Shown here: piece after piece, positions 32,593-46,881 of the stretch
Layout: every line of letters starts with the position of its first letter
Position numbering within the stretch: position 1 is the stretch's first letter
Origin: Leptospirales bacterium
GTDB lineage: Bacteria; Spirochaetota; Leptospiria; Leptospirales; Leptospiraceae
Reading direction: 5' to 3'
Assembly: GCA_013297885.1 (NCBI GenBank)
Contig: JAAFIR010000016.1
Span: 1-64,000, forward strand
DNA: 64,000 bases
Made by a program: the position numbers and the translations under genes
Notes under the pieces: generated by a model
What the model saw: only the letters and a program-made list of their open reading frames with translations
What the model was told of the DNA's origin: nothing
The model's database searches: none

Positions 32593-33051
32593 ATGAGCCA
32601 AAATCAAGACTTTCAAATCTCTAAATTAATTGAACTAGCAAGAACCAATAAATATGAAATGAGTTGTGCCGGTTTTGCAGCACTTGATAAAATTGACAAA
32701 TTGCCGATTAATCAAAAATTTAAAACAAGAAAAAATGCAGTTCAAGCTCTTATGGTACTTTCAGATAAACTCATCAAATTTGACTATTTTTCTCTAGAAG
32801 AAAGAAAAAAACTTCAAATTGAAACTGGAATGTCTGATTCTCCTTATAAACATGGTGGAAGAAATTTATTTACTGCTCCTAAAGTTGAAGAAGATCTAGA
32901 AGAAGATTATATTCCGCAAGAAGAAGAAAATGAATTTTTTGTAAATGAAGATGGTGAAGTTATCGCTTCAAAACCAACAAAGAAATCAGCAGAAGAAGAT
33001 GATGATGATTTTGAAGATGAAGAAGAAGAACTTGAGGAAGATGAAGATTAA
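32593..33051 (+). CDS. acidic-tailed small protein, possible RNA polymerase omega subunit
   Basis: A 152-residue cytoplasmic protein in two parts. Residues 1-95 are mixed, with ELARTNKYEMSCAGFAALDKI and then TRKNAVQALMVLSDKLIKFDYF. This layout (a helix with ...NKYEMxxAGxAAL, a short linker, then KNAVQALxxLxxxKI) resembles the omega subunit/Rpb6 fold, but the match is from pattern only. Residues 96-152 are extremely acidic (EEDLEEDYIPQEEENEF; EEDDDDFEDEEEELEEDED), an unstructured tail. If omega, it would help assemble RNA polymerase; otherwise unknown. Start ATG 32593 has AAGGAA just upstream. The DUF115 gene begins 2 nt after its stop. Confidence 0.5.
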   Translation: MSQNQDFQISKLIELARTNKYEMSCAGFAALDKIDKLPINQKFKTRKNAVQALMVLSDKLIKFDYFSLEERKKLQIETGMSDSPYKHGGRNLFTAPKVEEDLEEDYIPQEEENEFFVNEDGEVIASKPTKKSAEEDDDDFEDEEEELEEDED

Positions 33052-33053
33052 TT

Positions 33054-34396
33054 TTGGAAAATTTTGAATTTAATATTCAAAACAATTTTTTAAATTTATT
33101 TTATAAACCCACAAATTCATATGTTCATTCCAAATATAACCCTGAGATCGAAGCAGATCGTTCATTATTAAATCGTAATTTCTCTTCAAATTCAAAAATT
33201 ATTTTTTTTGGATTTGGAGTTGGGTATTTAATTGAAAGTTTTTTAAAAAAATTTGGTTCAGCATTTGATATAATTTTGATAGAACCAATTTTAAATTTAC
33301 TAGAACATGAGGAATTAAAAAAAAAATTATTAATTTTGAATTAATTTTTAATTCATTTAAAATTTATTATTCTAGTGAAATTGAATTTATAAATTTAAAA
33401 AACTGTAAACTAATTACATCCCCTTTTTATCAAAAAAATTTTCATGAAGAATATAATTTGATAAAAAATAACACTTCCTTAAATAAGAGTATAAATGATT
33501 CCACTAAGGATTTTTTTTCAAAAATTTGGTATAGAAATTATTTAAAAAACTTGAAGTTAATATCAAAAAAAGAAAAATCTGGTTTTATATTTGAAAATTC
33601 TTTTCAGTTTCAAAATAAATCAATTTTATTTATAGGAGCTAGTCCTATTCTTGAAGAAGAAATTGAATTAATTAAAATTTATCAAAATTCTTTTTATCTC
33701 TTCTCCTCTGATACTTCTAGTAATACTTTAATTCAAAATGGCATTAAACCTGATTTAGTTATTTCTATTGATTCATCAAGAGGGACGATTTATCATTTCC
33801 AAAACTTACCAAAAGAGATTCCAATCCTAACATGGCTTGGTGGAAATTCAGAAATTTTTTATTTAGATAACCCAATTTTTATTTTTCTTTCAAATTATCC
33901 TTTAGATCAAATTTTATCAAATGTATTGTTTAAAAATCAAAATCTTATTTTGGATAATCCAACACTTAATGTTTCAGGAATATCAAAATCAATTGCAATT
34001 AAATTTTTAGCAAGTCAATTAGTATTATCTGGTATTAGTTTTCAAAAATATAAAGGTAAAACTCATGCAAAGGGAACAGGTTATGAAAATTATTCACTTA
34101 GTTTTATAAATAGAAAATTTCCTTTAGAAAATTATAATCCAATAACTTATAAAAAAGAGATTAGCAAAAAAAATGAATTAGCTTTATTTCATCTATTAGA
34201 TAAAGAAAAAATTTCTGTAGAATTTTTAAAAAATATAAATGAATTTGAAAAAATTTCAAAAAATAAATTTTTAAGTATTCGAATCACAGAACCAGAAGAA
34301 AAACAATTTTTGAAATTCATTAAATTAAACCAGATTGAAATTCAAAACTCACTATCATTAACTAAAAAGAATTTTCAAAGATTTTTAATAGACTAA
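33054..34396 (+). CDS. DUF115 (MptE-like) protein, one gene broken by a -1 frameshift at a poly-A run
   Basis: Two frames, 33054-33344 and 33458-34396, are pieces of one gene of about 447 codons. Adding one A to the ten-A run at 33317-33326 joins them: the frame then reads on through LKKKIINFELIFNSFKIYYS and the spacer without a stop into the second frame. The product is a DUF115/6-hydroxymethylpterin pyrophosphokinase-like protein: IWYRNYLKNLKLISK, then KSILFIGASPILEEEIELIK and LIQNGIKPDLVISIDSSRGT are the family core. Such proteins act as motility-associated factors or glycosyltransferase-like enzymes near flagellin genes. The break may be an assembly error, slippage-tolerated expression, or true inactivation. 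Start is TTG. Confidence 0.82.
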
Positions 34397-34432: not shown

Positions 34433-35335
34433 ATGAGAGAAAAAAAAATTGAAATAGCTTTAGCAATTGCAGGTGGAGGTTGTAAAGCTCTATATGCATT
34501 AGGTGTTGGTTTTAAACTTAGAAAATGGGGAATTTCTATAGTAGAAATCTCTGGTGTTAGCGCCGGTTCAGCAATTGGAATGATGATTCTTTCAAAAAGA
34601 GAAGAAGAAGGAATTGAATATTTTGAAGAAATTTTGAGGCGTAATAATCGAAATTTTAGACCTTGGGAATTATTATTAGGAAAAAGACCCTGGCCCCATG
34701 AAAATATGTACAAACGAACTCTAAGATATTCAATTGATTATGAAAAAATCCAAAAAACAAAAGTAAAGTTTTTTGTTCAAGCAATCAAAGCATTTCCAAG
34801 AAAAAATAAAATTCAAAATTATTGGAATAAATTAAGATTAATTCCAAGAACAATGAGGGCAGTTATTTTAGATGATAAAGATTTAGAAAATGGTATTAAT
34901 CCCACTAGAGTCCAAAAAATTATTGAAGAATGGAATCTCACTGAAGTTCTTTATACAAATAAAGATTTTTTAAATCATGAATTAATTGAACAAATTATAA
35001 TGAACTCTTCTTCTATACCTCCAGTGATTAGCTTTCAAAAGATTAATGAAGAATATTATTTAGATGGTGGTCTCACAAATAATCTATTGCTTGAACCATT
35101 TTCAACTGGTTTAAAAAAAATTGGAATCTATTATGAAAATACAACAATTTTAACAAAACCAAAAAATATTTTTAAAAATACATATTTAATAAAACCAGAA
35201 AAAGGATTACCAATTACTACTTTTGATTATACAAATTCAGTAGGAGCTAGAGAAGCTTTTGAGCTAGGAAAAAAAGATGCAGAAAATAAGAAAGATGAAA
35301 TTTATAAATTCTTGAGACAAAAATGGGAAAAATAG
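34433..35335 (+). CDS. patatin-like phospholipase
   Basis: A 300-residue serine hydrolase of the patatin/RssA fold acting on acyl esters of phospholipids. Oxyanion loop IAGGGCKALYALGVG (about residues 12-26), nucleophile elbow GVSAGSAIGM (Ser of GxSxG at about 44) and catalytic Asp in YYLDGGLTNNLL (DGG, about 213) are all present. No signal peptide or membrane segment is visible, so it is cytoplasmic or delivered by another route. It overlaps the LmbE-like gene by 13 nt, pointing to coupled expression. Confidence 0.92.
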   Translation: MREKKIEIALAIAGGGCKALYALGVGFKLRKWGISIVEISGVSAGSAIGMMILSKREEEGIEYFEEILRRNNRNFRPWELLLGKRPWPHENMYKRTLRYSIDYEKIQKTKVKFFVQAIKAFPRKNKIQNYWNKLRLIPRTMRAVILDDKDLENGINPTRVQKIIEEWNLTEVLYTNKDFLNHELIEQIIMNSSSIPPVISFQKINEEYYLDGGLTNNLLLEPFSTGLKKIGIYYENTTILTKPKNIFKNTYLIKPEKGLPITTFDYTNSVGAREAFELGKKDAENKKDEIYKFLRQKWEK

Positions 35336-45758: not shown

Positions 45759-46881
45759 TTTCTGATGCTTTTTTGCTAGCATTTTTTCCTAAACTTTTTT
45801 TTACTTTAGAAAGATTATTTTTCATTTCTGAATAATAATCTTTATCAGTAAAAAGTCTTAAAACTTCTTTAGAAATATTTTCTTTATTACAGTTGGATTG
45901 AATCAATTCTTTACAAATTTCTTTTTCAGATAAAATATTAACTAGACCGACATATTCAGTTAATACCATAGCTTTTCCAATTAAATAAGAAATTGTGCTT
46001 AATTGATAAATGATAACCATTGGTTTTTCAAAATAGGCGACTTCTAAAGTGGCAGTACCTGAAGCTACAATTACTACATCTGAATTTTGTATACATCTTG
46101 CTGTTTTATCAAAATAATAATCAATTTTTAAATCATTGTAATTTTCTAAAATCGAAAAAATATAACTCTCTTCACTTGAATTAATATTAGGAAGAAAAAG
46201 TTCCAATTCCTCATTTGTCTTTTGTTTTATAATTCTTAATGAATCCAAAATAGGTATTAATAATCTTCTGATTTCACCTTTCCTAGATCCTGGCATAATA
46301 CATATTTTTCTTTTATTTTTTGAAGTTTTAAAATCTTTTTCAATTTTTAACTTTTCTTCCATTCTATCTGAAAGAGGGTGACCAACAAATCTAGAATTAA
46401 TATTGTATTTATCATAAATTTTTTTTTCAAATGGAAATAATAACAAAATCAAATCAACCAATTTTTGAATTTTAAAAATTCTTTTAAATCTCCAAGCCCA
46501 AATTTGTGGTGAAACATAAAATATAATTTTAATATTTTGTTCTTTTAATTTTTCAGCTAAATACAAATTAAAACCTGGATAATCGATTAAAATTGCATAT
46601 TTAATATTTTTTAGTTTTGCTTCATCAACTAAAGATTTAGCAATTTTTTTTAGTGGAAAATATTTAGTAAGTATACCAGTGAAACCAATTACAGAAAGAC
46701 TTTCCATTTCAAATTTAGAAACCATTCCTTGTTTCTTCATTTCTTTTCCACCAATTCCAAAAAATTGAAATTCTTTTGGTAAACTCCGCATTAAATCTGC
46801 ACCGAGTAAATCACCTGAATGTTCACCAGCTATTATTAAAATCTCTTCAGATATTTTTTTTTTCTTTTTTATAGATACCAT
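45727..46881 (-). CDS. lpxB: lipid-A-disaccharide synthase
   Basis: LpxB joins UDP-2,3-diacylglucosamine and lipid X to form the lipid A disaccharide at the inner membrane. 384 residues: ILIIAGEHSGDLLGADLMRSL at the N terminus, FGIGGKEMKKQGM, ESLSVIGFTGIL, AILIDYPGFNLYLAEKLKEQNIKIIFYVSPQIWAW, ICIMPGSRKGEIRRLLPI and VIVASGTATLEVAYFEKPMVIIY, all standard. The start overlaps lpxI by 35 nt and its end overlaps a convergent lipoprotein gene by 32 nt. It shows the cell makes lipid A, so it is diderm with LPS. Confidence 0.96.
   Translation of the reverse strand: MVSIKKKKKISEEILIIAGEHSGDLLGADLMRSLPKEFQFFGIGGKEMKKQGMVSKFEMESLSVIGFTGILTKYFPLKKIAKSLVDEAKLKNIKYAILIDYPGFNLYLAEKLKEQNIKIIFYVSPQIWAWRFKRIFKIQKLVDLILLLFPFEKKIYDKYNINSRFVGHPLSDRMEEKLKIEKDFKTSKNKRKICIMPGSRKGEIRRLLIPILDSLRIIKQKTNEELELFLPNINSSEESYIFSILENYNDLKIDYYFDKTARCIQNSDVVIVASGTATLEVAYFEKPMVIIYQLSTISYLIGKAMVLTEYVGLVNILSEKEICKELIQSNCNKENISKEVLRLFTDKDYYSEMKNNLSKVKKSLGKNASKKASETILELIYESR

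Follow-up and report, generated by a model that had tools for sequence, protein, structure and literature searches.

A Maf-like DUF115 gene divided between two reading frames at a conserved poly-A run in the Leptospiraceae

The split gene, its product and its neighbours

The window, namely the whole stretch of 64,000 nucleotides that was analysed, derives from a genome of 4.6 Mb in 72 contigs and harbors a gene that is divided between two reading frames at a run of ten A's (Table 1). The position given for this run in the initial annotation is exact, and the two open reading frames that were proposed there to be joined when the run is read as A11 do yield a single stop-free frame from 33054 to 34396. 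The same frame is obtained when the run is read as A8, while none is obtained with A7, A9, A10, A12 or A13 (lengths of 7 to 13 were tried).

Table 1. Features in and around the split gene, with their positions in the window
Feature	Position	Strand	Remarks
Upstream co-directional gene	32593..33051	+	152 aa, acidic tail; probable divergent RNA polymerase omega subunit
N frame (zero frame)	33054..33344	+	TTG start, 96 aa, TAA stop (33342-33344) 15 nt past the A run; Maf N-terminal-like
TTG start codon	33054..33056	+	Aligns with AUU/AUC behind an AGGAG Shine-Dalgarno site in three congeners
A10 slippery run	33317..33326	+	Zero frame TTA AAA AAA AAA TTA; in-frame A_AAA_AAA inside; A10/A10/A11/A10 in relatives
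C frame	33311..34396	+	-1 relative to the N frame, open from 33311; remainder of the Maf N-terminal domain and MptE-like domain; reached only via a frame change
Gene-finder ORF in the C frame	33458..34396	+	TTG 131 nt past the run; start not conserved
Downstream neighbour, patatin-like phospholipase (context only)	34433..35335	+	PF01734, 87 bits

The fragment encoded in the N frame aligns with positions 84-148 of the Pfam profile Maf_flag10_N (PF20157; Bitscore: 17.7, under the cut-off of 23.5), while the translated C frame matches the MptE-like family (PF01973; Bitscore: 67.9; cut-off: 34.6), and the two domain matches follow each other in the order expected of a single gene. A profile built from the C region of the family furthermore matches the Maf glycosyltransferase of Magnetospirillum (PDB 5mu5; E-value: 9.5e-8), as well as the HPPK/MptE protein of Methanocaldococcus, and 5mu5 was also the best match in a Foldseek search with the model of an intact ortholog (E-value: 4.3e-13; TM: 0.54/0.42). 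The product of the split gene is a short DUF115/Maf-like protein, which in kind most resembles the Maf flagellin glycosyltransferases. It shares the PF01973 domain with the Magnetospirillum protein and appears to have the same overall fold, but would reach only ~450 aa, as compared to 632-666 aa for solved Maf structures, and requires a frameshift to do so, while its Maf-type activity and substrate are presumed. By analogy with Maf, we infer that it may glycosylate flagellin or a different protein of the cell surface. The designation "DUF115 motility-type" in the initial annotation is therefore borne out by the PF01973 and 5mu5 matches as regards the family, whereas its second element draws solely on the similarity to Maf. 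Two further DUF115 paralogs, of 591 and 606 aa, are encoded in the window genome and are unsplit.

The split gene begins 2 nt past the stop codon of the upstream gene, which is located directly 5′ of nearly all of the orthologs examined, although it was not seen for G027 and G026. Searches of PDB, Pfam and NCBIfam with a sequence profile of the upstream protein yielded no match, and the omega family PF01192 was found over its cut-off in none of the four genomes of the order that were tested, as opposed to 14/14 controls. The AlphaFold model of the protein is of low confidence (pLDDT 61), and its top Foldseek matches in PDB are mostly RNA polymerase omega chains, with E-values of about 1 or more. 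In view of these weak but consistent fold matches and of the missing PF01192 matches, the upstream protein is considered to be a probable divergent omega subunit.

The 5′ end of the split gene itself is unusual in the three congeners of the window (G001, G002 and G003), where no ATG, GTG or TTG codon occurs in the first 57-64 codons. At the position of the TTG start of the window, an AGGAG motif is followed by ATT in two of these genomes and by ATC in the third, and the codons after the ATT or ATC are under purifying selection (pN/pS: 0.19-0.29). A canonical start ahead of the conserved HS motif is likewise absent from 9/24 orthologs. A 5′ end without ATG, GTG or TTG was noted at loci L010, L011, L012 (reverse strand), L013, L015, L017, L018, L020 and L030.

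Conservation of the frame step and the case for a single gene

A DUF115-type match is present in all 61 genomes searched, comprising the window genome and 60 relatives. The informative set consists of seven orthologs within the family of the window, with the three congeners joined by G005, which belongs to a second genus, and by G004 and G006, which represent other genera of the family. The strain comparison recommended in the initial annotation revealed the same split at the same site in all three congeners and in the second genus: in G001, G002, G003 and G005, as in the window, the N- and C-terminal parts lie in different frames, separated by a -1 step at the A run, and the same frame correction is needed. 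The run reads GTA-AAA-AAA-AAA (A10) in G001 and G002, GTA-AAA-AAA-AAA-A (A11) in G003 and TTA-AAA-AAA-AAA (A10) in G005. The additional A in G003 is derived from a substitution, in that the next codon begins with A, such that the frame step is unchanged. The zero-frame stop codon begins 15 (window), 9, 9, 2 and 12 nt past the run in the five split genes, and the C regions of the split relatives share 40-48% identity with that of the window. The orthologs of G004 and G006 each form one open frame, of 473 and 492 aa, respectively, and the order-level orthologs that were read are also unsplit, at about 415-567 aa, save for one fragment at a contig edge. The relatives are metagenome assemblies, and their run lengths are consensus values.

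In a rpoB tree the three congeners group with the window (support: 95/96), G004 and G005 branch next in an order that the tree leaves unsettled, and G006 falls outside, while a test of the split genomes as a clade was uninformative (p-AU: 0.62). Given this placement and the single frame of G004, the split was either gained once and subsequently lost in G004, or its gain was common to the genus of the window and G005. The KKK tripeptide encoded at the run is specified in the relatives by AAA codons alone, after a codon ending in A. The probability of this arising by chance from codon use is ~0.16-0.23 for each of the four relatives (small samples), and as such AAA-only coding lends some support to a conserved run, though little when taken alone. 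The frame step is the stronger evidence.

The first ATG, GTG or TTG in the C frame is located 131, 101, 614, 235 and 272 nt past the run in the window, G001, G002, G003 and G005, respectively, and in G002 it falls inside the catalytic domain. Both frames are nevertheless under purifying selection (pN/pS about 0.2-0.5), including C-frame codons 1-33 past the run (pN/pS: 0.31-0.51 among congeners, as compared to 0.29-0.40 further on). Selection on codons that precede any canonical C-frame start argues for one gene with a frameshift, and the interval 33054-34396 is very probably a single gene that is functionally read across the run by means of a conserved programmed frameshift. That it encodes two proteins, a short N-terminal one and an independently initiated MptE-like one, is most unlikely. 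While gene finders would call two ORFs, and the apparent use of near-cognate starts in this gene makes reinitiation past the N-frame stop conceivable, no conserved start is found by the junction, and G004, G006 and the order-level orthologs that were read have a single frame. Moreover, in the AlphaFold model of the unsplit G004 protein (mean pLDDT 81), the junction corresponds to residues 91-96, at the start of a helix (residues 91-106) in the N-terminal α/β domain, and the split thus sits within a helix of a single domain. Relatives with two true separate proteins, which the initial annotation named as a refutation, were not found in this set: the split genes have no usable C-frame start near the junction, and in two further genera of the family the protein is encoded in one frame.

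Homopolymers are error-prone and the congeners are metagenome-assembled genomes, such that a sequencing or assembly error, or else a decaying pseudogene, might be suspected. An assembly error was rejected, as the split recurs across independent assemblies. The five assemblies derive from different samples and are divergent, yet share the same frame step, the selection described above acts on either side of the run, and the core MptE-like motifs are intact, so that error or decay is an explanation to which we give hardly any credence. Reads that would show A11 in place of A10, the other outcome envisaged at the outset, are likewise made very unlikely by an out-of-frame state that is conserved in three congeners and another genus. 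A long homopolymer near the 5′ end of a gene whose product may modify the cell surface or the flagellum would also suit phase variation, with replication slippage altering the run length and thereby switching the gene on (A11, A8) or off (A10) among cells, as happens at the homopolymer tracts of known phase-variable genes. Maf genes of Campylobacter are known for such tract variation. However, all five genomes are out of frame, where a switch would have been caught in the "on" state somewhere, and the sole change in length, the A11 of G003, arose by substitution and leaves the frame step as it was. No on/off difference is seen among the five consensus assemblies. The suggestion that changes in run length switch the gene on and off is thus not upheld by these genomes, and we regard phase variation as very improbable.

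Slippage by the polymerase or the ribosome

If the split gene is read across its run, either RNA polymerase or the ribosome may change the frame. Avoidance of homopolymers was evaluated in 1,146 ORFs of at least 200 aa within 1.95 Mb (42%) of the genome, against synonymous-codon shuffles, following a first computation on 1.24 Mb. The ratios of observed to expected A runs in these ORFs are 1.15 (A7), 1.23 (A8), 1.02 (A9), 0.36 (A10), 0.06 (A11) and 0.05 (A12 and longer), and those of T runs are 0.62 (T9), 0.25 (T10) and 0 (T11 and longer). The in-frame heptamer A_AAA_AAA is enriched within A7, A8 and A9 runs (1.51, 1.66 and 1.24, respectively), and as such gives no indication of a cost in translation. 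Slipping by the ribosome should make this heptamer costly at any run of at least seven A's, and its enrichment therefore speaks against such slipping. A length threshold in the avoidance of runs has been taken as a sign of a slippage-prone polymerase (Baranov et al. 2005; PMC1088944), although the avoidance of A10 and longer runs in ORFs can reflect replication slippage too.

Programmed -1 ribosomal frameshifting, by which the ribosome would slip back one base on A_AAA_AAA and continue in the C frame, has several points in its favor. A step of exactly -1 is needed in all five genomes, and overlapping A_AAA_AAA heptamers lie in the zero frame within the run of each of the five split genes. The Lys-tRNA of Escherichia coli is shift-prone on A-rich heptamers (PMC4066793), and a transposase-like gene pair in the window genome makes the same -1 step at an A9 run. 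An upstream Shine-Dalgarno-like stimulator, a downstream structural stimulator, or both are usual, though not obligatory, in genes with programmed -1 ribosomal frameshifting. Here, a Shine-Dalgarno-like GAGG just upstream of the run is found in only one of the five split genes, that of the window, and structure downstream of the run beyond that of shuffled sequences is found in none of the five (z: 0.02, -0.15, 0.48, 0.96 and -1.31), on which ground a stem-loop stimulator was rejected. Since runs of A7 to A9 are not avoided and are enriched in A_AAA_AAA, avoidance sets in at A10, in the manner that a slip of the polymerase governed by run length would predict, and conserved stimulators are lacking, RNA polymerase slippage appears to be the likely mechanism on these sequence-based grounds, and ribosomal frameshifting the unlikely one. 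Sequence features of slippage-decoded genes are furthermore present at the locus, with an A/T homopolymer of about nine or more at the junction, an early stop in the zero frame with a conserved continuation in the other, and conservation across species (five genomes, two genera), both frames being under selection. The initial annotation's central proposal, that slippage on the A run rescues a single DUF115 gene, is thus supported, with the polymerase rather than the ribosome being what we infer to slip.

Under the favored mechanism, RNA polymerase would slip on the conserved A10 or A11 run. Transcripts that have gained one A, or lost two, would place both frames in register and be translated into a full-length DUF115/MptE-like (Maf-type glycosyltransferase-like) protein of roughly 450 aa. 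Transcripts of templated length would yield a truncated product of ~96 aa, ending inside the N-terminal domain, and the predicted outcome is a reduced dose of full-length enzyme. The truncated product, which would have an incomplete N-terminal domain and no MptE-like domain, is probably inactive, as judged from the modelled fold. In tssM1 of Citrobacter rodentium, transcriptional slippage on an A11 run takes place at 20-25% and both products are needed (PMC4256274). At a rate of this order, enough full-length protein to be of use could plausibly be made. A near-cognate start and a frameshift seem to occur together in one gene, and both of them would lower its output. It could be envisaged that the AUU/AUC start of several orthologs and RNA polymerase slippage constitute a double brake and that, in view of the omega-like neighbour, slippage reports the state or the make-up of the polymerase. 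This is a decidedly improbable extension, but if true, the output of a surface or flagellar modification enzyme would be tied to the fidelity of transcription.

Comparison with known systems and other runs in the genome

As in tssM1, the zero frame of the split gene ends soon past an A10 or A11 run, the full-length product requires one more A, and a long continuation lies in the other frame. In tssM1, which is a different gene in another phylum, slippage and the need for both products have been shown. The truncated form predicted for the split gene would stop within a domain and probably has no use, but the site is kept across two genera. RNA polymerase slippage on a homopolymer also determines the choice of product in dnaX of Thermus thermophilus (A9) and mxiE of Shigella (PMC1088944), both of which are different genes. 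In dnaX slippage leads to the shorter form and in mxiE to the longer one, as is proposed for the split gene.

In genes of the A/T-rich Blochmannia genome, ancient poly-A frameshifts have reportedly persisted while species diverged, and selection acts on either side of them. These frameshifts (Wernegreen et al. 2010) are cited in PMC3812077 and PMC3711429. The split gene likewise has a homopolymer frameshift that has outlasted the divergence of species and is flanked by sequence under selection. However, Blochmannia are reduced endosymbionts, whereas the gene described here resides in a 4.6-Mb genome that avoids runs of A10 and longer.

Literature searches for slippage together with Leptospira, or for Maf-type glycosyltransferases together with frameshifts, returned nothing relevant, and in the main text of a large frameshift survey (PMC3711429) neither Leptospira nor DUF115 appears. 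The mechanism is of a known kind, while the gene and the clade of spirochaete relatives are new, in that no earlier report was found in these searches. To our knowledge, there are few chromosomal, non-transposon genes of bacteria in which the slippage site itself has been kept by evolution, and most reports of slippage known to us concern single strains, insertion sequences or reduced endosymbionts. In the present case, an out-of-frame A10 or A11 has been retained over more than 50% amino acid divergence in a lineage with a 4.6-Mb genome that otherwise avoids such runs, and this conserved site offers a way to test what a slippage-decoded gene is for. A practical consequence is that annotation will break the split orthologs into two pieces or call them pseudogenes, and will give them incorrect starts as well.

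A scan for frame changes at A/T runs of at least nine, covering the same 1.95 Mb (42%) of the genome, returned 23 places under this loose criterion. On visual inspection, most of them look like neighbouring genes that each carry a start of their own, unconvincing frames or, in one case, a transposase-like OrfA/OrfB pair. The split DUF115 gene was judged by eye to be the only convincing internal chromosomal split with conserved domains on both sides within the 1.95 Mb, and a split at an A10 run is more than a chance event. The OrfA/OrfB pair (window genome G000, contig C17, 72417, reverse strand; locus L075, 12417), with its A9 run and -1 step, is likely a second case of frameshifting in this genome. 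Another A10 run is found within the window at 46854-46863 on the reverse strand, at a place where two genes overlap in different frames, and it occupies codon 276 of 281 in one gene and codon 6 of 384 in the next. By their motifs the two gene products look like LpxI and LpxB, and a slip on this run could fuse or truncate these LpxI-like and LpxB-like proteins.
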